DNA of 64,000 bases, from assembly GCA_947629785.1 (NCBI GenBank), contig CANRFB010000005.1, forward strand, positions 1 to 64,000. Direction: 5' to 3'. The stretch's first letter is position 1; each line of letters begins with the position of its first letter. Below the pieces are notes generated by a model. It made no database searches, was not told the DNA's origin, and was given only the letters and a program-made list of their open reading frames with translations. Source of the DNA: an uncultured Clostridia bacterium. GTDB taxonomy: Bacteria; Bacillota; Clostridia; Oscillospirales; Ruminococcaceae. The position numbers and the translations under genes were made by a program. Below are positions 6,242-28,855 of the stretch, in pieces.

Positions 6242-8986
6242 ATGGGTATTTTTGACGGACTTTTCGGAAATTACAGTAAGCGCGAACTTGCTAAGATAGA
6301 ACCTATCAAAAACCGCGTTCTTGACCTTGAAGACCAGTATGCCGCTATGTCGGAGGAAGTCCTTAAAGGTCAGACCAAAATACTGAAAAAACGCCTCGAG
6401 GACGGCGAAACTCTGGACGATATTCTTCCGCAGGCACTGGCTACAGTCCGCGAAGCGGCTTGGCGTGTTCTGGGAAAGAAGCCGTTCCCCGTACAGATAA
6501 TCGGCGCTATCGTTCTTAATCAGGGACGTATCGCAGAAATGAAAACAGGTGAGGGTAAAACTCTCGTTGCCTGCTGCGCTTCCTACCTCTGCGCCTTGGA
6601 GGGAAAAGGCGTTCACGTTGTTACCGTAAACGACTACCTTGCCAAGTTCCAGTCGGAGGAAATGGGAAAAGTTTACCGCTATCTGGGACTTACCATAGGC
6701 TGTATCCTCCACGATATGAACAACGACCAGCGCCGCGAAGCCTACAACTGCGATATTACCTACGGCACAAACAACGAATTCGGCTTTGACTATCTCCGTG
6801 ACAACATGGTCATTTACAAAAGCGAAAAGGTTCAGCGCGAACACCATTTCGCCATTGTGGACGAGGTGGACTCTATCCTCATAGATGAAGCAAGAACTCC
6901 GCTTATCATTTCAGGCAAAGGCGACAAGTCCACGGAACTTTACACCATGGCGGATAAATTTGCCAAAACTCTGAAACCCTACATCGTTGTTGAAATGGAC
7001 AACAAGGTGGATCAGGAAGAAGCTTCCGAGAACTGCGACTACATCATTGACGAAAAGGCAAAGACCGCCACAATCACCCGTCAGGGCGTTAAAAAAGCGG
7101 AGAAATACTTCAATGTGGTAAATCTGTTCGACGCGGACAACTCCACGCTTCTCCACCACATAAATCAGGCTCTGAAAGCAAACGGCGTTATGAAAGCCGA
7201 CATCGATTACGTTGTCAAGGACGGCGAAGTCATTATCGTTGACGAATTTACGGGACGTCTTATGATGGGACGGCGTTTCAACGACGGTCTGCATCAGGCT
7301 ATCGAAGCCAAAGAGGGCGTTAAAGTCGCTCACGAATCCAAAACACTGGCAAGCATTACTTTCCAGAACTACTTCCGCCTGTACAAAAGGCTTTCGGGTA
7401 TGACAGGTACGGCTATGACCGAAGAGGAAGAGTTCAAGGAAATTTACAAACTGGACGTTATCGAAATACCCACGAACCGTCCCGTTCAGCGTATAGACCA
7501 CTCGGATGTGGTTTTCAAGACCGAACACGGCAAGTTCCTTGCGGCTATAAGAAAAATTGAGGAATGTCACGAAAAGGGACAGCCTGTTCTGGTGGGTACT
7601 GTTTCCATTGAAAAATCGGAAATACTTTCCAAAATGCTTTCCAAAAAGGGCATAAAGCACAATGTCCTGAACGCAAAACAGCATGAAAAAGAAGCGGAGA
7701 TCGTTGCTCAGGCAGGTAAGTACGGAGCCGTTACAATTGCCACAAACATGGCAGGACGCGGTACCGACATTATCCTCGGCGGTAACGCCGAATTCAAAGC
7801 TAAAGCCGAAATGAAGAAAATGGGCATGGAGGACGACCTTATCAACGAAGCCATAAGCTTTGCGGAAACCGACGACGAGGCGATCCTCGAAGCCAGAAAG
7901 ACCTACCGCGATCTTTACGACAAGTATAACGCCGAAGTCAAGGAAAAGGCGGAAAAGGTAAAGGAAGCAGGCGGATTGTTCATTTTGGGTACGGAAAGAC
8001 ACGAGTCCCGCCGTATCGACAACCAGCTCCGCGGACGTGCAGGACGTCAGGGAGACGTGGGCGAAAGCCAGTTCTTCCTGTCCCTTGAGGACGATCTTAT
8101 GCGGCTTTTCGGCGGCGACCGTATTACGGGAATGATGGAGGCTCTCAATGTTGAGGAGGATATGCCTATCGAGGCTAAACTTCTTACCAAAGTAATTGAA
8201 TCTTCCCAGAAAAAGGTAGAGGGCAGGAACTTTGCTATCCGTAAAAACGTCCTTAACTACGACGATGTTATGTCCGCCCAGAGGCAGATCATTTACAGCC
8301 AGAGGGCAAAAGTCCTTGACGGCGAGGACATTCACGAATATATCCTGAAAATGATACAGGATATGATCTCCGAAACGGTGGATCAGTACCTTTTGGACGA
8401 CAATGTAAAGGACGACTGGAACCTTGCGGGTCTCCGCGACAGATTCATGGGTCTGTTCACGGTGAACGAAGATTTCCGCTATACCACTGCGGAACTGGAG
8501 GAAGTTTCCAAGCAGGACATTGTTGACAAGCTTGTGAACCGCGCACTTGATTTCTACAAGCAGAAAGAAGAACGCGTGGGCTCGGAAGTTCTACGTGAAC
8601 TGGAAAGAGTTATCCTGTTAAAGATAGTAGACATCAAGTGGATGGCGCATATCGACGATATGGAAGAACTTAAGCGCGGTATCGGACTCCGTTCCTACGG
8701 TCAGAAGAACCCCGTTGTAGAATACCGTTTCGAGGGCTTTGAAATGTTCGACGCCATGGTGGAATCTATTCGTGAAGAAACTATCCGCCTGCTGTTTACC
8801 ATTCAGGTACAGCAGAACGGCGCCGCTCCCAAGCGCGAAAGAGTCATGAAACCCGTTGACACCGGCAGTGACGGAACGGTCACAAGCGCTCCCAGAAAGG
8901 TCGGCGCAAAAGTCGGCAGAAACGATCCCTGCCCCTGCGGCAGCGGCAAAAAGTACAAGAAATGCTGCGGAATGGACCTCAAATAA
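6242..8986 (+). CDS. secA: preprotein translocase ATPase SecA
   Basis: 914 residues, normal for SecA. It drives post-translational protein export through SecYEG by ATP hydrolysis at the inner face of the membrane. Visible: Walker A in [11 protein letters not shown], Walker B/DEAD equivalent [16 protein letters not shown], the preprotein cross-linking region, motif VI with [12 protein letters not shown], and the C-terminal zinc-binding SEC-C tail [13 protein letters not shown]. The ATG at 6242 has AAAGGTGG upstream. It has its own promoter and appears monocistronic or leads into the DUF1015 gene 111 bases downstream. Confidence 0.98.
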
Positions 8987-18449: not shown

Positions 18450-18464
18450 TCTCTCAACTCTATT

Positions 18465-20987
18465 CTAACGGTTTTCTGCAATGTAGTTTGAAACGCGGTT
18501 CTGGATAATGCCCGCAACGTCCTTGGCGGATTTCTGTCCTTCAAAGAACGCTCCCGCTTCCTCGCTGATGATCTCCATAGCCTGCTGATCGTAACGTCCC
18601 GAAACGTTTACCGACTTGATGAAATCGATCATTCTCTGATTTTCCTCATCGGTATTAACGGGGATCGTTATCTGCTGATCGCCGATCCAGTAGTTGTAGT
18701 CATATTCCTCCTTGGTTCCGTCCTCGTTCGTCCAGTAAGGTCTTTCCTTGGCTGCCGCAGCCTGCTTTTCAAGTGAGGAAATCTTTACGGGGAACTCGTA
18801 AGAGTTGGGCGTTGCATACTGATCCTGATATTCGTCAGAGTAGAAATATTTTACAAAATCCCATGCGCCGTCTGCATTCTTCGCTTTGGAAGTTATCGCC
18901 AATGTAGTGTACGAATTGATGACCGAGCCGTTGCCCTCATTTGTGGGATAGCCCTTTACGGTTATGGGTTCGCCGAACGCGCCCAGTTCGTTTTCCTTAA
19001 AGAACCGGAAATTATTTACATATGCCTGACTGAGCAGTGCTCTGTCCTCTCTGTAACGGCTTTCATATTCCTGCCCGTAGTTGTTGTCCATATCATATGC
19101 CGAATCGTCATATTCCTTGGGGAACTTGTTGCAGAATTCAAGCAGGTTGATAAACTCGTCAGTGTTGAACTTGCACTCGCCTGTTTCCTTGTTGATAAAG
19201 CTTGAGCTGTTGTAGTAAAGCATATTGCTGAGCATTGAAGATTTTGTTCCCCATCTGTCGCCGAATATCTGATCCGCGGATTCGGTGTTCTCATCGCAGA
19301 ATTTGATAAATTCGTCCATTGTCCAGCCCGACTCTGCGCCGACTCTGGAAGTCTTTCCGATAAGTGTGTTTATGGTGAATGACGGAACAACTTCATAGAG
19401 TTTGCCGTTGTTTTCATAGGCTTGGAAAACATTCTGCAGGTAATCATCGCGGTTGAAAGTTTCGTCCTTATCCATAAATTCATACAGATCTGCAAGCAAA
19501 CCCTTTGAAATATAGCTGTCAACGGGAAGCTGACTGTCGATAACAAGAATGTCGGGGAGATTTCCCGCGATCATGTCGTTATTGAGTTTTGTAACGGCAT
19601 CGTCATAGCTGTTTACGGCATAATCCTGATAGGAAGTGAGTTCTATCTCATATTCCATGCTGTTCTTGTTGTATTCAAGTATCTGACGTTTGATGCCTAT
19701 GTCAAGATAAATTGCATAAAGCTTTATAAGCTTCTTGTCGGGGAGAGTTGCGGGATCGATCTCGGTAAGGATATTGACTACCTGATCTTCGCTGCTCCAG
19801 CTGTAACCGCCGCCGCCGTTATAGTCATAATTATAGGTAATGCAGAAAATTCTTCCGTCCGGCAGAACGCTTATGCCTGTTGATGTGTCCATCGCCGTGG
19901 TGTCAATGCCGGATTTCAGCCAGTCAACGATAGTCTCAGCGGTGTTGGTTTCAATATCGTAACCCGCAAGACCGGAATCCCTTGTTATAAGCAGATCATA
20001 TTTATCCGTGCCGTTCATAAAAGAACCGTTTATGGTGCAAGGGTACTCCGTGCCGAACTTCTTGCCGGCTATATCGACCTCTGTAAGCTTGGATTCGGAA
20101 GTATACACATCGCCCTCCATCTTGCTTGTAGTGATCATTGTGAATATCCTGCCGTCGCCTGCTTTGTAAACGCCGTTCATCCATGAATTCTCGTCAAAGG
20201 AATCGTTCTTGATCTCGCCGAGCAGTTCGCCCTTTTCGTTTGTAAGGTAGATCGTTCCGTCACCGTTGCCGGGGAGCAGTATGGTTCCGTCAGCCGCTTC
20301 TGCCATGCTGTTGAAATATACATAGTTATCGTCTTTGGAAGCGGCGTCATAAACAGCTTTCATATCCGACTCTGAAATTTTGCTGCCGTCCTCGCCGCTG
20401 TATTTTACAAGATAGTAATGCTCCTCGGATTCGCCTGTTGTTTCGTCCCATTTGTATGTGTTTTCGATGGAAAGCAGATCGCCGCTGCTTAAAACTATCA
20501 TGTTTGCGATATTGCGGTTTTCGTTATTATTCTGATCGCTGGAAGAAATGACAGTTTCCTTGATAAGAGTACCATTCATGTCAACGACCTGCATTTTGAG
20601 TTCACTGTGCCATTCGGTCACATCTGCTGCCTGTTCCGGCTCGTCCGAAACTTCGTCCGCTGTAATGTCCTCCTCTGCCGCGTCCGTATCTTCTTGGACT
20701 GAAATTGTCGTTTCCACAGACATGGCAAGAGGAACTGTGTCAGCTTCGATATTTGTGGTGCTGCCGTCGGCGGTTTCTTCCCAGCTGTTTTCGCCGAGGA
20801 TAAACAGTTTGTCGTTGCTGTAAAGGACTTTCTGTCTGTAACTCATGCCGTCGGGCAGTTCGATTATCTGTGACGAGTAGACGTGTTCCTTTGAGGCGAT
20901 AACGTCCCCGCCCTTTCCGCCGCAGGAGCAAAGCCCCACGGCAATTGCCGCAGCCATGACCGCGGCTGTTATTTTTGACTTGTTCAT
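18465..20987 (-). CDS. large sensor-fused solute-binding lipoprotein 1
   Basis: 840 residues. A signal peptide ends in the lipobox GLCSC, so the mature protein is lipid-anchored outside the membrane. Residues about 35-420 are beta-rich with recurring short strands, resembling a propeller-like sensor domain with an acidic low-complexity insert. Residues about 430-840 are a family 1 extracellular solute-binding domain (NDMIAGNLPDILVID, KSSGWTMDEF-like GWTMDEFIKF, EFVKYF-like WDFVKYFYSDEYQ). Family 1 proteins deliver sugars to ABC permeases. It is a paralogue of the next gene; the last residues IAENR and following bases are identical. The ATG at 20987 has AAGAAGGG about 12 bases upstream. Confidence 0.8.
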   Translation of the reverse strand: MNKSKITAAVMAAAIAVGLCSCGGKGGDVIASKEHVYSSQIIELPDGMSYRQKVLYSNDKLFILGENSWEETADGSTTNIEADTVPLAMSVETTISVQEDTDAAEEDITADEVSDEPEQAADVTEWHSELKMQVVDMNGTLIKETVISSSDQNNNENRNIANMIVLSSGDLLSIENTYKWDETTGESEEHYYLVKYSGEDGSKISESDMKAVYDAASKDDNYVYFNSMAEAADGTILLPGNGDGTIYLTNEKGELLGEIKNDSFDENSWMNGVYKAGDGRIFTMITTSKMEGDVYTSESKLTEVDIAGKKFGTEYPCTINGSFMNGTDKYDLLITRDSGLAGYDIETNTAETIVDWLKSGIDTTAMDTSTGISVLPDGRIFCITYNYDYNGGGGYSWSSEDQVVNILTEIDPATLPDKKLIKLYAIYLDIGIKRQILEYNKNSMEYEIELTSYQDYAVNSYDDAVTKLNNDMIAGNLPDILVIDSQLPVDSYISKGLLADLYEFMDKDETFNRDDYLQNVFQAYENNGKLYEVVPSFTINTLIGKTSRVGAESGWTMDEFIKFCDENTESADQIFGDRWGTKSSMLSNMLYYNSSSFINKETGECKFNTDEFINLLEFCNKFPKEYDDSAYDMDNNYGQEYESRYREDRALLSQAYVNNFRFFKENELGAFGEPITVKGYPTNEGNGSVINSYTTLAITSKAKNADGAWDFVKYFYSDEYQDQYATPNSYEFPVKISSLEKQAAAAKERPYWTNEDGTKEEYDYNYWIGDQQITIPVNTDEENQRMIDFIKSVNVSGRYDQQAMEIISEEAGAFFEGQKSAKDVAGIIQNRVSNYIAENR

Positions 20988-21258
20988 TAAAATAACCATC
21001 CCTTCTTTAGTACTATATAGTATAAACTATTATTTTTTAAATGTCAAGCGCAAAGTTCAGCTTTGCTCTGCAAATCGTTCTTTAAGAGTTGAGAGTTAAG
21101 AGTTGAGATGTTGACATAAACTGTCAGTGTTCTTTTCACAACTTATTTTTGCTTTATAATTTTATAGCTATTAAAATTGAAAAACAGAAATATAAGCGTT
21201 AAATATCTCAACTCTCAACTCTCCACTCTCAACTCTACTAAAGGCTCTCAACTCTATT
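20988..21258. repeat. GAGTTAAGAGTTGAGAG simple repeats between paralogues
   Basis: 271 bases between the two lipoprotein genes. Clusters of seven/eight-base units (AGAGTTGAGAGTTAAGAG-type at about 21081-21108, and the reverse complement at about 21209-21254) surround an AT-rich middle. The units also occur at 18453, 28827, 40284 and 40866, often touching the 209-bp elements. No gene is seen. Confidence 0.6.
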
Positions 21259-23493
21259 CTAACGGTTCTCTGCGATATAGTTTGCCGCTCTGTTCTGAAT
21301 TATTTCAGAAACGTCCTCGGCGGTTTTCTGCCCCGAAAAGTACGCCCCCGCTTCTTCCCTTACTATGTCGTAAATGTAACTGTTATAAGCGCGGACTTCC
21401 GTCAAAGAGTTTATAAACTCCATCATTCGCGCGTTGTCCTCGTCGGTGTTTGGGTCGGCGGCGGGGAATACGTTTTCCCTGCCCGAATTTGTCTTTGCAT
21501 TCGCCGCGGCGCGTTCCAAAGCGGAAATTTTTACCGGAAAATCATAACTCTGCGCCCCGATGTACTTGGATTGGTATTCGTCAGACCAGAAATATTTTAC
21601 AAATTCCCACGCGCCGTCAGGGTCTGCCGCCTTGGAAGTTATCGCAAGGGAAAAATCCTCCGAGATAAACGAACCGTTCCCGCCGCAGGGGTAACCTTTG
21701 AAAGTCACTCTTTCGCCGAAATTTACCTGTTCAAGAGTCTTTATGTCACGGAAATTCCCGACAGTTGCCGTCATAAGCAAAGTCCTGTCCTCGCGGTAAG
21801 CGTCCTGCTCGGCGGAAAAGTCGATTTTGTCCTTGCTTACGGTCTTTTCGGGGAAACGTCCGCAAAATTCCAGAAGCTTTATAAAATCATCGCCGTCAAA
21901 GTAACATTCCCCCGCTTTTTCATTCATGTAGCTGCCGAAGTTAAAGGACATGAACGTCAGAAGCATATTCATTTCCGAGCAGGAAGTGGATTCAAAAAGC
22001 CCCTGCCACGACCCGTCCGAAGCGTTCCTGTCCGCAAAATCTATAAACTCGTCCATTGTCCAGCCTTGGGTATCGCCGACTTTTGAAGTTTTTCCCGCAA
22101 GGGTTTGTATGCTGAACCCCGGCACGGCTTCGTAAAGTTTCCCGTCAGTCTCGTAAGCGGTGAAGATGTTCTGCAAATAGTCCTCTCTGCGGAAGTCGGG
22201 GTCATTTTCCATGAAATCGTAGAGGTTAGCAAGCAGACCCTTTGAAGCGTAACTTTCCACGGGCATGGCGCCGCTTACGGCGATAATGTCGGGAATGTTT
22301 CCCGCAGTCATTTCGCTGTTCATACGCGAAAGCTTGTCCGCGTAATCACCGCCCACGTCGTAAAAATCCGTGAGTTCTATGTAATATTCGCCGCTGTTTT
22401 TGTTGAAATCGGTTATCGCCCGCTTCACATCTGAATTTACAGCCAGCGCATAAATTTTTATAACATTCCTGTCAGGAATTTCATCGGGAGAAATTACTGA
22501 TAGTATATAAATTGAAAGGTTTAATTCCGAGTAGAAACCGCCGTCAAGCAGGTTTTTTACAGTGAGAATTACCCTGCCGTCAGGGAGAACTGCTATTCCC
22601 TTTTCCGCGGAAACCGATTCCGCGTCTATCCCCGAAGCGGAAAGGTCAATGAAAGTTGAAGTTTCCCCCGTTTCGATGTCGTAAGCGAAAATTTTCGTGC
22701 TTCCGAGGACGAACATATCGTATTCCCCGAAGCCGCTTAATAAATTCCCCGTAAAGTCAACGGGAAACTCCGTCAGCAAGCCCGAATCGCCCACTTCCGC
22801 AAGAGTTCTGTTCCCGCTGGGGTCGGAATATTCCGCAAATATCCTGCCGCCGCCTGTCCTTATGACCTTTTCAAAATACCTGTCCGCGCCGCCCGAAATT
22901 TTTCCCGAGAGTTTATCATTTACAAAATATAACCCTCCGTATTGTGTCAGAAACAGCGTTCCGTCATCGGAAACAGCCGCGGAAGTTATGTATATCCGCT
23001 CTCCCGTTTCGTTCACGATATTTTCAAGGCTTGTCTCGGAAAGTTTATTGCCCTCATTGTCGTATTTCACCATACAGGAAAATCCTTCCGAGTTTTCCAC
23101 CGTCAGGAAACCGTCCCCCCAAGCCGCCGCAAATTCAAGAAAACGCTGTTCCTCGGTCGGGAAAATATCCATAGTGCTTTCAAGCGTGCCGTCAGGGGAA
23201 TATGTAAGAATTTTCCCGCCCACAGCGGTGTAAATCTTTTCACCTTTACAGAAAACGCCGCTGACAGACTGCGTTCCACCCGAAATATTTATGCTTTCCG
23301 CGGAAAAAATATGCTCCTTTGAAGCTATCTCCCCGCTTTTCCTGTTTTCGTCTTTGCTTTTTGAAACGTCCTTTCCCTCGCTGACTGCGCTGCCGTTTTC
23401 GGGAAAACTTCCGCTCTCCGTTTTTTGACAGGAAGCAAAACCCGCCGCCATTACCATGGCAAGAATTACCGCCGCTGCTTTTGAAATTTTCAT
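21259..23493 (-). CDS. large sensor-fused solute-binding lipoprotein 2
   Basis: 744 residues, paralogue of the preceding entry with the same domain order: signal peptide with lipobox AGFASC, a beta-rich propeller-like region (about 60-340) and a family 1 solute-binding domain (about 345-744; RMNSEMTAGNIPDIIAVSG, TQGWTMDEFIDFAD, GAWEFVKYFWSDEYQ). ATG at 23493 with GGAGGT upstream; the track start has no site. It lies 81 bases downstream of the MacB-like gene in the operon. Substrate unknown; the two copies could recognise different sugars or sense other ligands (inference). Confidence 0.8.
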   Translation of the reverse strand: MKISKAAAVILAMVMAAGFASCQKTESGSFPENGSAVSEGKDVSKSKDENRKSGEIASKEHIFSAESINISGGTQSVSGVFCKGEKIYTAVGGKILTYSPDGTLESTMDIFPTEEQRFLEFAAAWGDGFLTVENSEGFSCMVKYDNEGNKLSETSLENIVNETGERIYITSAAVSDDGTLFLTQYGGLYFVNDKLSGKISGGADRYFEKVIRTGGGRIFAEYSDPSGNRTLAEVGDSGLLTEFPVDFTGNLLSGFGEYDMFVLGSTKIFAYDIETGETSTFIDLSASGIDAESVSAEKGIAVLPDGRVILTVKNLLDGGFYSELNLSIYILSVISPDEIPDRNVIKIYALAVNSDVKRAITDFNKNSGEYYIELTDFYDVGGDYADKLSRMNSEMTAGNIPDIIAVSGAMPVESYASKGLLANLYDFMENDPDFRREDYLQNIFTAYETDGKLYEAVPGFSIQTLAGKTSKVGDTQGWTMDEFIDFADRNASDGSWQGLFESTSCSEMNMLLTFMSFNFGSYMNEKAGECYFDGDDFIKLLEFCGRFPEKTVSKDKIDFSAEQDAYREDRTLLMTATVGNFRDIKTLEQVNFGERVTFKGYPCGGNGSFISEDFSLAITSKAADPDGAWEFVKYFWSDEYQSKYIGAQSYDFPVKISALERAAANAKTNSGRENVFPAADPNTDEDNARMMEFINSLTEVRAYNSYIYDIVREEAGAYFSGQKTAEDVSEIIQNRAANYIAENR

Positions 23494-23574
23494 AGAAAAA
23501 CCTCCGTTTTTTCGTTTACGGACAAAAGCGTCCAATTTATAAGACGAAAAATCACGGCAATTCTTACAAAATTT

Positions 23575-24633
23575 TCATACAGCCGCTTCCTTTTTTTCGC
23601 GGCTCCTGCTGCGGATATTTTCGGCACTATCGGAAATTTTCCCTTTAAGTTTGCCGAATATCCTGCTGCGGTTCTTTATAAACAGCCTGAACAGGTAAAA
23701 AACGGTAAAAACAGGTATTACCAGTCCTGTTATCTGCATTACAAGCAGGGAGACCGACCTGTCCTCGGTCATACGCGCGGCGTTTTCCCAGTAAGGGTAG
23801 ACCACGGGTCTGTCCACCACCGAACGTATACTGTTGTCCGCAAGAAGTGCAAAGCGGTTTTTCAGACCATACCTTGCAGAATTTTCCACCGTTACGCGGT
23901 TTTCCTCGCCTACGCCTACCGATTCGGAAATTATCTGCAAGCCCAGTCCCGTTACCGGATCGGGCAGACAGGCTTCATAGCAGGAAAACCTCGCCCCGCC
24001 CTCCGAAATAAGGGAATATCCCTGATAGGGCATGAACAGTCTCGGCTTTTCGCCGTAAACTTTTTCCATATCCTTGTTTTCGCTGCGCCTGTAAACTCCT
24101 GCCACATAGAAATATTTCCCATTTATTGTAACGGGCATTCCCACCACGTCCGAAGCGCCGAAAAGCTGCCACGAAAGCACATCATCAATGACGATCCTGT
24201 CGTACATGGTGTCATTATCGGAATAGTAGTACCCGCTTATCATATCCTGCGGGTGGAACAGGAAAAAGTCTCCGCCCGTGATAATCGCAGCCGCTTCCGC
24301 GCTTGCCCTGTCGGAACTTACCGACATAGGCATCTGATAGGAAGAAAACGCGTCCGCCCATATCCTTGCGTCCTCTTTTTCGGAGGAAATGGAATTTTCC
24401 GTAAGCTTTTTCTCAACATTAACGCGGGTCATGAAAATGCTGTCAATTACCATTTCGTTTTCATAATCGGTAAAAACGCTTACCTGCGAATACCGCACGT
24501 CGTTTCCCCACCGTTCCGCAGCTTGTTGGTCGGGAAGCGAACCCGCAAGAACGGCGGCTATTATCGAAGTGCATATCAGGAACACTACCGAAGCGGCGTT
24601 CAGTATAAGCAAAACTATATGTTTAGGTTTCAT
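23575..24633 (-). CDS. MacB-core-like two-pass membrane protein
   Basis: 352 residues: one membrane helix near the N-terminus (about 8-30), an extracellular domain resembling the MacB/FtsX periplasmic core (YDRIVIDDVLSWQLFGASDV and VTINGKYFYVAGVYRR), and one helix near 295-315 followed by a basic tail. The three further transmembrane helices of a true FtsX/MacB permease are absent, as is any ATPase. It starts 12 bases after the HlyD-like gene, from an ATG with AAGGGGA, so the two are coupled. It may be an extracellular partner of the adaptor (inference). Confidence 0.65.
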   Translation of the reverse strand: MKPKHIVLLILNAASVVFLICTSIIAAVLAGSLPDQQAAERWGNDVRYSQVSVFTDYENEMVIDSIFMTRVNVEKKLTENSISSEKEDARIWADAFSSYQMPMSVSSDRASAEAAAIITGGDFFLFHPQDMISGYYYSDNDTMYDRIVIDDVLSWQLFGASDVVGMPVTINGKYFYVAGVYRRSENKDMEKVYGEKPRLFMPYQGYSLISEGGARFSCYEACLPDPVTGLGLQIISESVGVGEENRVTVENSARYGLKNRFALLADNSIRSVVDRPVVYPYWENAARMTEDRSVSLLVMQITGLVIPVFTVFYLFRLFIKNRSRIFGKLKGKISDSAENIRSRSREKKEAAV

Positions 24634-24645
24634 ATCGTGTTCCCC

Positions 24646-26643
24646 TTATTCTACGAGCCGAACCTGCATACCCGGCTCGATAGGCTTTGTGGAGGTGGAA
24701 ATTATGAATTCGCCGCCCAAGAAACCGCCTGAAACTGCCGATTGCGTATCGTCCGAAGCAAGAACATCAACATCTACACGTTCTGCAATATATCTGTTTC
24801 CAAGGGGGCTGCTCTTTGCCGTCACCACAAGCACGAACTTTCCGTTTGAATCCTCTCTTACCGAACTGTTGGGAACTATGTAGTCATACCTCTGCCCCTT
24901 TGAACCCATGGCAAGCTGCAAATTCTGCCCCGGAGTAACATCGCCCGTAATGGAAAATTTAAGTATTTTTGTCTGCGCAGGATTTGTCTTATCGGGGGAA
25001 ATCGAATCAAGCACAGCCTTTGCATCGCCGTACCAGAAATATTGTATTTCCGCTTCGTCGCCCACTTTGACTTTCCGCGACTGCTCAATTGTAACGGGCA
25101 TTTCAAGAGTGTAGCCCTTTTCGGTCATTTCGATAGTGGCAATTGTTGAACCCATTTCCGCGTCCTCGCCTGCCACTACGGACAAAGCCGTTATCATTCC
25201 GCCGACTTTAGCTTTGATCTCCGCGCCGACAGATTTTGACTTATACTTTTCAACTTCCGCTTCCGCGTCGTCCACTGCCGCCGCAAGTTCGCCGATATTC
25301 AGCGCGTCCCTGCTTGCGGAAAGCGCGTCGTCGCTTTTCTGCTTGGAAAGGGCTATTCTTGCCTTTTTAAGGTTATTTTCCGCTTCTTTTATCTTATCCT
25401 GCTGTTCGTCCTCCGAAACGGAAGCTTTCTCCTTGGCTTCCGCTTCTTCCGCCTGAGCGTCCTCAAGGCGTTCTTTTGCGTCGTCAAGCTTGTCGCTGAC
25501 ATCGCCCGAACTCTTATTTGCGCCTTGTTTCATAGATGCTATCGCATCGTCAAAATTCTTCTTGGCGTTATCGTAGCTTTTTGTCAATTTATCAAGAAGC
25601 TGCTTTTCCGCGTTAAGTTTCTGGACTGTCAGGCTGTAATTGGACGATTGGGAAAGCAGCACGCTGTAGTCCTCCTGCAAATAAACAAGTTCGCGATTTG
25701 CCTTGGTAAGTGATTCTTCCAGCGCGCTGTGCTGACTTTTATACTCGCTGTATGATAATTTTCCCGAATTGTCAGCAAAAGCGCTGCCGCCTTCTCCCTC
25801 GGTTTCGTTTTCTTCCACATTAACGTTCTCTGAATATCCGTCGCTTTCAAGCTTAAATATTTTGCTCTGAATGTCGTTTATTTCATTCTGTTTTTCCTCA
25901 ACTTCGCGCCTTTTTGCGGTAATTGCAGACTGGTCGCCGCCTGCGGCTATCTCGTCCTCATATTCTTTTACGCGGGCTTCGCAGTCGGTCTTTTGCTTTT
26001 CCGCATTGTCAAGTCTGGTTTTTGCGCTCTTTATTTTGTTGTAATTTGCAGTTCCCAGAGATGTGTAATCCTCGGCGGCAATTGCGGCGAGAATATCCGA
26101 ATACTCCTTGTTTTCCTTTTCGAGGGCTTTTACCTCTTCCTCTATCTTCTCGGTCTTTGCTTTTGCTTTTTCGTAAGCTTTCTGATATTCGGAAATATTT
26201 TTCAGCTCGTCTTTAAGCTTTTCTATATTTTCTTCTTGTATCTGAATATCCAGTTCCTCCGCGCTGTAGTCAAATCCCGCTGTCAGCAGGGCTTCGTTAT
26301 AAGCTTTCTGCGCGCTTCTGAGGTTTTTCTCCGCGGCGTCAAGTTCCGCGCTTTCGCTGTCCTCCAATCTGAAAAGCACATCATCTTTCTTCACTTCGTC
26401 GCCGACTTTGACTTCCACTGCTGAAATTGTACGAGTCTCGTCCATTTTCACCTCGTAAGTCTGATTTGCTTCCACCGTGCCGCTTCCCCGTATCTGTTCG
26501 GAAAGCGTTCCGCTTGAAACATACTGCGCCGAAACTTCGGGAAGTGAGTAATTCATTATGGTATTTGAGAAAAACGTCAGCAGCAGCATTATTATCAGGA
26601 AGATTATCGCCGCGTTTTTCACCCATTCTCTTTTCTTGTTCAT
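24646..26643 (-). CDS. HlyD/RND-type adaptor protein with long coiled coil
   Basis: 665 residues. One N-terminal membrane helix (about 10-30), then a split barrel-sandwich (lipoyl-like) domain with EVKVGDEVKKDDVLFRLED and, after a very long charged coiled coil (about 85-450), its second half KSVGAEIKAKVGGMITALSVVAGE, then beta-barrel and membrane-proximal domains. This is the membrane-fusion-protein architecture that links inner-membrane transporters to outer partners; in Gram-positives it works with MacB-like ABC permeases. No ATPase or complete MacB permease is adjacent. The ATG at 26643 has GGAGCG upstream. Confidence 0.8.
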   Translation of the reverse strand: MNKKREWVKNAAIIFLIIMLLLTFFSNTIMNYSLPEVSAQYVSSGTLSEQIRGSGTVEANQTYEVKMDETRTISAVEVKVGDEVKKDDVLFRLEDSESAELDAAEKNLRSAQKAYNEALLTAGFDYSAEELDIQIQEENIEKLKDELKNISEYQKAYEKAKAKTEKIEEEVKALEKENKEYSDILAAIAAEDYTSLGTANYNKIKSAKTRLDNAEKQKTDCEARVKEYEDEIAAGGDQSAITAKRREVEEKQNEINDIQSKIFKLESDGYSENVNVEENETEGEGGSAFADNSGKLSYSEYKSQHSALEESLTKANRELVYLQEDYSVLLSQSSNYSLTVQKLNAEKQLLDKLTKSYDNAKKNFDDAIASMKQGANKSSGDVSDKLDDAKERLEDAQAEEAEAKEKASVSEDEQQDKIKEAENNLKKARIALSKQKSDDALSASRDALNIGELAAAVDDAEAEVEKYKSKSVGAEIKAKVGGMITALSVVAGEDAEMGSTIATIEMTEKGYTLEMPVTIEQSRKVKVGDEAEIQYFWYGDAKAVLDSISPDKTNPAQTKILKFSITGDVTPGQNLQLAMGSKGQRYDYIVPNSSVREDSNGKFVLVVTAKSSPLGNRYIAERVDVDVLASDDTQSAVSGGFLGGEFIISTSTKPIEPGMQVRLVE

Positions 26644-26665
26644 ATCTGTTCGCTCCTTAAATTAA

Positions 26666-27634
26666 TTAGCCCTTGATGCCGCCCGAGTAAGCAATTCCCT
26701 CTACAAGATAATCCTCACCGTAAAGGAACATCAGCAGCGTTGGTATCATGTAAATTGTCGCAACTGCAAAAGCAAGTCCTATTTCTCCGCTGTTTATCTG
26801 AGAAAGGAACACCGACAGCGGGTATAAATTGGTGTCCGAAAGAAGAACCAGCGGCTGTTCCACCATGTTCCAGTAGTCTATGAAAACCAGTATCGCCACC
26901 GAGAAAAGCGCACTTTTGCAAAGCGGCATACATATATGTGCAAATATCTGAAGTTCCCCCGCGCCGTCAAGCTGCGCCGCTTCTATCAGCGAAACGGGAA
27001 TTCTCCGCATTATCTTTGAAAGAATGAACACCGCAAAGGGCGTGAAAATTCCCGGAAGTATTATTGCCGCCCGTGTGTCGAGGATCCCTAACCAATCGGA
27101 AATGAGATAGTTCGGCACAAGCGTTACCTGATAAGGCATGAGCATTACCACTATGTAAACGAAGAATATTACTTCTTTTAGTCGCCCTTTCAGCCTTGCG
27201 AAGGAATACGCCGCCAGCGAAGCCGTCACAAGCTGGAATATCACTATCGGAACTACCAGTATCACCGAATTCCAGAATTTCAGCAGATAGTCGGGACTTT
27301 TGAAAAGCACCGTGTAATACTGACTGAAACTTACCATATCGGGAATGAATTTCAGGTTTATCTTTTCGGCGATATATTCCTTGCCGCCGTCCTCGCTTTC
27401 GGAAAAGATAAGCCCGTAATTTGCGTTTATCTCCGACGCGCTCATAAACGAGTTTGCTATTGTCAGCACCGTTGGCATCAGGAATATTACCGCCGCAACA
27501 GCCGCAAACAGCGTAAGTATCGCCATTATAAGCTTTTGCTTTTTCTTTGAAAGCCGCACTTTCAGCGGAACTTTCGGCTTTGGCTTGGAAATCGCGGCTT
27601 CGGTTTCCGAAATAATGTTTACCGACTTGCTCAA
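26666..27634 (-). CDS. sugar ABC transporter permease, MalG type
   Basis: 322 residues with six predicted membrane helices after a basic cytoplasmic leader. The EAA loop IEAAQLDGAGELQIFAHICMP contacts an ATPase in this family, and the protein ends GGIKG as MalG-type permeases do. The start is TTG at 27634, overlapping the stop of the upstream permease (ATTGA), with GAGAGGACGTGGA upstream; translational coupling is likely. No ATPase gene is in the operon; Firmicute sugar importers often share an MsmX-type ATPase encoded elsewhere. Confidence 0.85.
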   Translation of the reverse strand: MSKSVNIISETEAAISKPKPKVPLKVRLSKKKQKLIMAILTLFAAVAAVIFLMPTVLTIANSFMSASEINANYGLIFSESEDGGKEYIAEKINLKFIPDMVSFSQYYTVLFKSPDYLLKFWNSVILVVPIVIFQLVTASLAAYSFARLKGRLKEVIFFVYIVVMLMPYQVTLVPNYLISDWLGILDTRAAIILPGIFTPFAVFILSKIMRRIPVSLIEAAQLDGAGELQIFAHICMPLCKSALFSVAILVFIDYWNMVEQPLVLLSDTNLYPLSVFLSQINSGEIGLAFAVATIYMIPTLLMFLYGEDYLVEGIAYSGGIKG

Positions 27635-28566
27635 TCTTCCACGTCCTCTCCGAATTTATTTTCGGCAATAAACAGCGCGCCTATGATAATTACCATAACT
27701 ATCGCCATCAGTATAGCCGCCGAAGAAAGTTTCTGATAGTCGATGTTGCGGAATGTGTTATTCATAAAATGCTGTAACATATACAGGCTGTCAAAGGGAT
27801 AATCTCCCGTCAGCAGGTAAATTTCGCGGAAAACCTTAAATGAATTTATCAGCGAAAGTATTGCCACAAACAGTATGGTCGGCGAAAGATACCGCAGCTT
27901 TATGCGGAAGAATTTATAGAAGCCCCCTGCGCCCTCAAGCGTTGCGACTTCGATTATGTCCTTTGGGATATTGTTTAACGCCGACAGGAAAAGTATCATA
28001 TTATACCCCAAGTTTTTCCATAGGAACAGTACAACTATCACTATCTGTCCTTTTGTGGATTTTAGCCAGTCGATTTTCTCAATGCCGAAATTTGACAGAA
28101 AATCGTTCAGCGCGCCGTTGTAGTGGAAAATTACCTGCCATATAAGGACTATCGACGCCACGGGAACCATCATGGGGCATAGGAAACTCGTCCTGAACTG
28201 ACTTACAAAGGGAATTTTGCAGTCCAGAAGCATAGCTAACAGCATTGAAAGCACCACCGCCAGCGGCACGGATATTGCCGAAAACGTCAGTGTATTCAGC
28301 GCCGCCCGCTTGAACGCGGTATTTTTCAGAACGCTTATGTAATTATCCAGAAATACAAATTCCTTATTGATAGGATTATCTACCATAGAGTAGAAAATTA
28401 TTACAAAAAACGGAACGATAAAGAACACCATTACCCCCGCAAGGCTCGGTATAAGGCACAAGTACGGGAAAGCCGCGTCGCTTTTCAGGAATTTCTTTAC
28501 GGAACGTTTCTTCTTCGCCTTTTCCTTTACCTTGGGAACTTTAGGCTTTTTTTGCTTTATTTTCAT
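27631..28566 (-). CDS. sugar ABC transporter permease, MalF type
   Basis: 311 residues with six predicted membrane helices and a Lys-rich cytoplasmic leader. The EAA-type loop reads IEVATLEGAGGFYKFFRIKL. It forms a heterodimer with the MalG-type product in sugar import. ATG at 28566 is chosen since AGAGGT lies nine bases upstream. First gene of the six-gene operon. Confidence 0.85.
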   Translation of the reverse strand: MKIKQKKPKVPKVKEKAKKKRSVKKFLKSDAAFPYLCLIPSLAGVMVFFIVPFFVIIFYSMVDNPINKEFVFLDNYISVLKNTAFKRAALNTLTFSAISVPLAVVLSMLLAMLLDCKIPFVSQFRTSFLCPMMVPVASIVLIWQVIFHYNGALNDFLSNFGIEKIDWLKSTKGQIVIVVLFLWKNLGYNMILFLSALNNIPKDIIEVATLEGAGGFYKFFRIKLRYLSPTILFVAILSLINSFKVFREIYLLTGDYPFDSLYMLQHFMNNTFRNIDYQKLSSAAILMAIVMVIIIGALFIAENKFGEDVED

Positions 28567-28762
28567 AACTATACCTCTGAAATACAAATATTTCCATAAT
28601 TAAACTGTAAAAGAGTTTACTATACTATTATAGCACATAATAAAAAAATTTCTATAGGAAAACGAAAACTGTAATCAAATTTTAACCTTTTTGGTTTTGG
28701 GGAAAATTGCTTTTCCCGCCGTTAATGCCGAAAATACGCGGTTTGCGGGATATTCCCCCGAA

Positions 28763-28816: not shown

Positions 28817-28855
28817 GGCAAAAGAAAAGAGTTGAGACGACCTGTCCCAACTCTT
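28817..28855 (-). terminator. terminator after cyclophilin gene
   Basis: Minus strand stem AAGAGTTGGGAC / GTCTCAACTCTT with a short loop, followed by TTTCTTTT, eight bases after the stop codon. Confidence 0.7.

Follow-up and report, generated by a model that had tools for sequence, protein, structure and literature searches.

A 64,000-nucleotide stretch of DNA (the window) from an uncultured Clostridia bacterium of the family Ruminococcaceae (contig CANRFB010000005.1 of assembly GCA_947629785.1) carries an operon in which the permease pair of a CUT1-class importer (permF and permG) is encoded together with an HlyD/MacA-type adaptor, a two-pass protein that contains the periplasmic core of MacB, and two solute-binding proteins (SBPs). 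The composition and conservation of this gene set suggest an envelope machine, not previously described, with an importer at its center. The reading favored here, to which we give about an even chance of being correct, is that the products form one dedicated machine in which a type I ATP-binding cassette (ABC) importer of the CUT1 class is permanently joined by a MacA-like adaptor and an ATPase-less MacB-core protein. Adaptors of the HlyD/MacA type are regarded as export parts, and importers as needing permeases, an ATPase, and an SBP alone; a joint set conserved across hundreds of gut Lachnospiraceae and Oscillospiraceae loci would alter the annotation of both families, since genes named singly would read "sugar permease" or "efflux adaptor." The gene set also suggests a testable reason for the retention of membrane-fusion adaptors by Gram-positive bacteria.

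Gene order is conserved. When 199 genomes of the window's own family were searched with the two-pass protein, about 20 in addition to the window's genome contained strong homologues, usually with one copy of the gene set per genome, and nearly every sufficiently long contig of the family displays the order permF-permG-adaptor-MacB-core-SBP. No other neighbor is conserved across this family set, be it a glycoside hydrolase, sugar kinase, other hydrolase, or regulator. A wider scan of genome contigs, with the permG alignment as query, yielded at least 588 confirmed loci, the best 80 of which were examined by name; these were picked via permG motifs including WNMVEQP, the signature of the permG family, and are therefore biased toward that motif. 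Almost all of the best 80 belong to Lachnospiraceae and Oscillospiraceae (carriers include Kineothrix alysoides, Parablautia muri, Acetivibrio ethanolgignens, and Butyrivibrio sp. WCD3002), and the listed loci have a gut and rumen distribution. In all 80, permG adjoins the adaptor gene, and the full set is present nearly everywhere the contig permits. Both permeases are present at 102 of the examined loci, and there the core genes invariably share a strand, the order permF-permG-adaptor-MacB-core-(SBP) is retained in about 95%, and the genes mostly overlap or lie no more than 50 nt apart (median gaps of -4 nt for permF-permG, 24 nt for permG-adaptor, 12 nt for adaptor-MacB-core, and -4 nt for MacB-core-SBP); an additional SBP gene stands upstream of permF in 48. 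The distance matrices of the permeases, adaptor, and MacB-core protein are correlated at r = 0.85-0.89 over 86 gene sets, with permF and permG themselves at 0.86. Such conserved synteny, seen in about 100 loci, rejects the possibility of coincidental neighbors and bears out the original prediction, made from the window's sequence without database searches, that this is a hybrid operon. That prediction had also specified six genes, among them a MalF/MalG permease pair, an HlyD-like adaptor with a very long coiled coil, and a MacB-core-like two-pass protein without the permease helices, all of which were recovered at the positions given there as open reading frames with corresponding Pfam matches (Table 1).

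The two BPD_transp_1 permeases retain the hallmarks of CUT1 importers. Profile searches match permF to SugA (7cad, 3e-32), AlgM1, and MalF, and permG to SugB (3e-29), AlgM2, and MalG, and in the alignments the EAA loop, the coupling motif of such permeases, is intact in both (EVATLEGAGGFYKFFRIKLRYLSP in permF and EAAQLDGAGELQIFAHICMP in permG). A signature, FKxFRE, is present in permF of 99 of 99 family members, and the genome's remaining CUT1 permeases showed neither it nor WNMVEQP. An ABC ATPase was sought by its Walker A and signature motifs. Of 104 core loci, 103 have none within the operon, and the remaining locus, L052, has an ABC_tran plus TOBE_2 (MalK-type) ATPase downstream of permG. 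The absence of an ATPase, as originally predicted, thus holds for the operon; as a statement about function it is not supported, given the intact EAA loops, a stand-alone MsmX-type gene, and MalK-type genes in the operons of relatives. The sole OB_MalK ATPase in the window's genome is this stand-alone gene (G000:C15), which has three of the four tested multitask residues (D77, R104, and E110) with Q154 replacing K154, and the CUT1-like permease loci at C1, C35, and C62 of the same genome are likewise without an adjoining ATPase. In Bacillus subtilis, MsmX is a separately encoded multitask ATPase (PMC7658222), and the stand-alone gene together with ATPase-less permease loci fits this arrangement. 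Powering of the module by a MalK/MsmX-type ATPase is suggested mainly by L052 and by two further loci, L193 and L194, in which a MalK-type ATPase (OB_MalK, TOBE_2) is encoded inside the operon. The C35 region (L213, 5857-18705) contains two more CUT1-like permease pairs beside proteins of 505, 765, and 975 residues, again without an ATPase.

The adaptor comprises an N-terminal transmembrane (TM) helix at residues 9-35 (LLLTFFSNTIMNYSLPEV), two lipoyl halves separated by a 373-residue, largely coiled-coil insert, a barrel, and a membrane-proximal domain; its N-terminus is MacA-like and its overall architecture is that of RND_mfp/HlyD proteins, so that the lipoyl, hairpin, barrel, and membrane-proximal elements of a MacA-type adaptor are all present. 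Conservation is uneven, being 0.83 in the TM helix, 0.73 in the membrane-proximal domain, 0.58 in the lipoyl and barrel regions, and 0.25 in the coil; permF scores 0.76, permG 0.82, and the two helices that flank the MacB core 0.36-0.40. The central part of the TM motif LTFFSNT (TFFS/SFFS) is strict in 90 of 100 operon adaptors, with close variants in most others, and is retained even in the distant L193 and L194 adaptors; it occurs in none of 10 adaptors from ordinary MacAB-like loci. The simplest reading is that the adaptor TM helix packs on the conserved permeases and that the MacB-core helices serve as anchors. Confinement of the helix's conservation to one face was considered and was not significant (p = 0.12). 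The coil insert ranges from 162 to 455 residues across the adaptors (median 323), and its length shows no link to SBP length (rho = -0.21, p = 0.07). If folded as a single straight antiparallel hairpin, the coil in the window could reach up to about 28 nm.

The two-pass protein has the layout TM1, MacB periplasmic core, a YPYWENAAR motif (conservation 0.82), and TM2 directly after the motif, and lacks both a nucleotide-binding domain (NBD) and the TM3 and TM4 of MacB. Both Pfam and Foldseek identify the periplasmic core: the AlphaFold2 model, with a predicted local distance difference test (pLDDT) score of 91.5, is closest to Acinetobacter MacB (5gko, 2.5e-12) and Streptococcus pneumoniae SpMacB (5xu1, 3.9e-12), with YknZ (5f9q, 1.1e-9) lower. 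A truncated or decaying MacB was rejected as an explanation, because the two-pass form is conserved, its motifs do not vary among 45 aligned sequences, and its model is confident. In one genus, the MacB-core homologues (L208 in genome G749, at 8902, and genomes G712, G788, G833, and G846) have one TGA within the matched stretch, probably because the frame stops earlier, close to the C-terminus, or possibly through recoding.

The SBPs are fusions of an N-terminal all-beta domain to a C-terminal CUT1 solute-binding fold, a refinement of the two lipoproteins of 740-840 residues that had been expected. In the AlphaFold2 model of SBP2 (pLDDT 86), the all-beta half spans residues 37-385 and the binding fold residues 402-840; Foldseek relates the protein to CbpC (7x0o, 6.7e-16), Lmo0181 (5f7v, with cycloalternan, 1.2e-15), and further oligosaccharide binders. 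Relatives of the SBP half in the Protein Data Bank bind oligosaccharides (cycloalternan, glucan, and others), and the operon thus includes the extracytoplasmic oligosaccharide-class SBP of a CUT1 system. The N-terminal domain has no confident family assignment and is a probable propeller, weak beta-propeller matches having been found in a minority of sequences (SGL in 7 of 31, Reg_prop in 6 of 31). SBP1 and SBP2 are 43% identical, and SBP2 is a tandem duplicate of SBP1, since their 3' ends with the first downstream bases (21245-21369 and 18451-18575) show 78% identity across 125 nt.

The loci fall into two grades. In the extended grade, to which the window belongs, the adaptor coil is long, the MacB core is two-pass, the propeller-like SBPs measure about 720-1090 residues, and the operon lacks an ATPase; the only rearrangement of its core that was seen is a swap of the adaptor and MacB-core genes in two related loci (L048, 9192-12595; L060, 3133-5522). 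The compact grade has adaptors of 341-403 residues, MacB-core proteins predicted to have four to six TM helices, and SBPs that are ordinary where seen. It is found at L054, L055, and L209 in the window's family and, outside that family but within the phylum, at L193 and L194, the last two with the order permF-permG-adaptor-MacB-core-MalK ATPase-SBP. L052 is intermediate, having a long adaptor, four TM helices in its MacB-core protein, and the TOBE_2 ATPase. Operons of both grades come with SBPs. At L054 (171-8437), two tandem permF-permG copies occur with MacB-core proteins, one with a normal short adaptor and the other with a 146-residue protein in its place.

Taken as an envelope-spanning machine for uptake or sensing, as originally proposed, the parts might work together as follows. 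PermF and permG would form the channel, driven by the stand-alone MsmX-type ATPase or, in some relatives, by the MalK-type ATPase of the operon. The adaptor would dock on the permeases via its conserved TM helix, the two-pass MacB core would support the adaptor ring as the MacB core does MacA, and the coil would rise from the membrane through the peptidoglycan zone. No OEP family match, and hence no TolC-family outer-membrane channel, was found in the window's genome; any span would therefore cross peptidoglycan and not lead toward such a channel. Lipid-anchored propeller-SBPs would bind the ligand and pass it inward to permF/permG, the likely cargo being a glycan that belongs to the organism's own envelope or to its surroundings, large or envelope-bound, and not an interchangeable nutrient sugar. 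An envelope or otherwise fixed glycan is the likelier cargo because there is usually one copy per genome and catabolic neighbors are lacking. Several observations weigh against this proposal. A MacB core without ATPase-coupled FtsX-type helices has no known role, and the organism's own MsmX-type ATPase has glutamine in place of lysine at position 154. The strong conservation of the adaptor TM helix is explicable by self-assembly of the adaptor, the correlated distance matrices come from co-inherited sets that share a history and are weak proof of contact, and the variability of the coil, uncorrelated with SBP length, leaves a fixed reach across the wall unsupported.

Of the other explanations, the best surviving, which we nevertheless consider unlikely, is a mechanotransducer or sensor in which the ATPase/permease cycle moves the MacB core and adaptor for work outside the membrane (e.g., activation of a wall enzyme, as with FtsEX) and the propeller-SBPs act as ligand sensors. 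Such a role accords with the retention of adaptor and MacB-core domains where the MacB permease helices have been lost, with the usually single copy and absent catabolic neighbors, and with mechanotransmission as the mode of operation of the MacB family (PMC5985334); however, the permeases, including their importer EAA motifs, are among the best-conserved parts, beyond the needs of sensing alone, and no kinase, hydrolase, or regulator is a conserved neighbor. It is rather improbable that the system is a nutrient polysaccharide importer whose adaptor collects long dietary glycans at the wall for conventional import. The resemblance of the SBP half to CbpC and to cycloalternan, glucan, and oligosaccharide binders, that of the permeases to AlgM1/AlgM2 besides SugA/SugB, and the gut and rumen distribution would suit it, but linked glycoside hydrolases, sugar kinases, and regulators are not conserved, the set is usually present once per genome, and a single tightly conserved permease pair spans many genera. 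Reverse use, in which the permease pair would export an envelope polymer or lipid-linked glycan via an adaptor tube with the SBPs as outside acceptors, is about equally improbable: the adaptor does match MacA, RND, and HlyD adaptors, and all characterized HlyD/MacA adaptors known to us belong to export systems, but CUT1-fold permeases with an SBP are, to our knowledge, importers in every characterized case, and SBPs are present in both grades. Least credible are two independent systems, an importer and an orphan adaptor/MacB-core pair, that merely share a transcript, for although the family origins are mixed and SBP2 has a promoter-like site of its own, an identical arrangement recurs in about 100 loci, distant families, and both grades, with shared private signatures and an adaptor TM helix conserved like the permeases.

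The genes of the window lie on the minus strand in the order permF, permG, adaptor, MacB-core, SBP1, SBP2 (Table 1). The permF and permG frames share 4 nt, 22 nt separate permG from the adaptor gene and 12 nt the latter from the MacB-core gene, and none of the gaps from permF through to the MacB-core gene shows a terminator-like site in a scan of the coding strand. From this layout, permF to SBP1 most likely form a single transcription unit, with a further start probably serving SBP2. The single transcript originally proposed for all genes is accordingly likely only for permF-SBP1, because SBP2 is preceded by a near-perfect promoter-like site. The inverted repeat between SBP1 and SBP2 is a dispersed repeat, since the sequence TCTCAACTCTCAACTCTC occurs 22 times in the genome assembly, and is perhaps a miniature element.

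Table 1. Genes and sequence features of the operon region (positions in the window).
Feature	Position	Strand	Evidence or detail
permF, MalF/UgpA/SugA-type CUT1 permease, 311 aa	27631..28566	-	Pfam BPD_transp_1 3.2e-12
permG, MalG/SugB-type CUT1 permease, 322 aa	26666..27634	-	Pfam BPD_transp_1 3.3e-16
HlyD/MacA-type adaptor, 665 aa	24646..26643	-	Pfam HlyD_3 1.7e-7; MacA 5nik 1.9e-7
Two-pass MacB-core protein, 352 aa	23575..24633	-	Pfam MacB_PCD 6e-7
SBP1 lipoprotein, 744 aa	21259..23493	-	Pfam SBP_bac_8 7.9e-18; lipobox AAGFASC
SBP2, SBP1 paralogue, 840 aa	18465..20987	-	Pfam SBP_bac_8 8.8e-18
Promoter-like site 5' of permF, TAGAAA-16-TATAAT, TG before second hexamer	28627..28654	-	Consensus match only
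Terminator-like site belonging to gene upstream of permF	28827-28855		
Promoter-like site 5' of SBP2, TTGACA-17-TATACT, 11/12, region's best match	21019..21047	-	Consensus match only
Inverted repeat between SBP1 and SBP2, 7-bp units (AGAGTTG), 31-nt arms	21082..21232	.	

No description of an ABC importer that has MacA-adaptor and MacB-core partners was found in the open-access literature, nor in the searched passages of reviews on the MacB family and on adaptors. Importers of the MCE/Mla type, in which an importer permease is joined to an extracytoplasmic conduit, are comparable in working principle; nothing pointing to MCE domains, an MlaE permease, or a lipid substrate turned up here, homology to MCE/Mla not having been tested. 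With MacAB(-TolC), YknXYZ, and SpMacAB, the system shares a MacA-type adaptor with a TM helix and the MacB periplasmic-core fold, but it has no MacB NBD, fused or adjacent (the one operon ATPase among the core loci, that of L052, being MalK-type), only two TM helices in the extended grade in place of the four of FtsX/MacB-type proteins, importer permeases and SBPs as partners, and a far longer coil. With the CUT1 type I importers MalFGK2, SugABC, AlgM1M2SS, and AraNPQ-MsmX, it shares the permease family, EAA motifs, and a lipoprotein SBP, and in this genome it differs by the N-terminal propeller-like domain of its SBPs and by the FKxFRE and WNMVEQP signatures particular to the operon permeases. 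We know of no CUT1 system with an HlyD/MacA adaptor or a MacB-core protein. As in AraNPQ-MsmX-type systems, the ATPase would be a separately encoded one of the multitask type (PMC7658222). Tentatively, and with somewhat less than even confidence, the operon may represent a separate ABC class, in which importer permeases energized by MalK/MsmX act via a detached MacB core and a MacA adaptor. A type I importer would in that case have taken over the mechanotransmission module of type VII exporters and would use it to pull a long or wall-associated glycan across peptidoglycan. Each part comes from a known family; it is the assembly that appears to be new.

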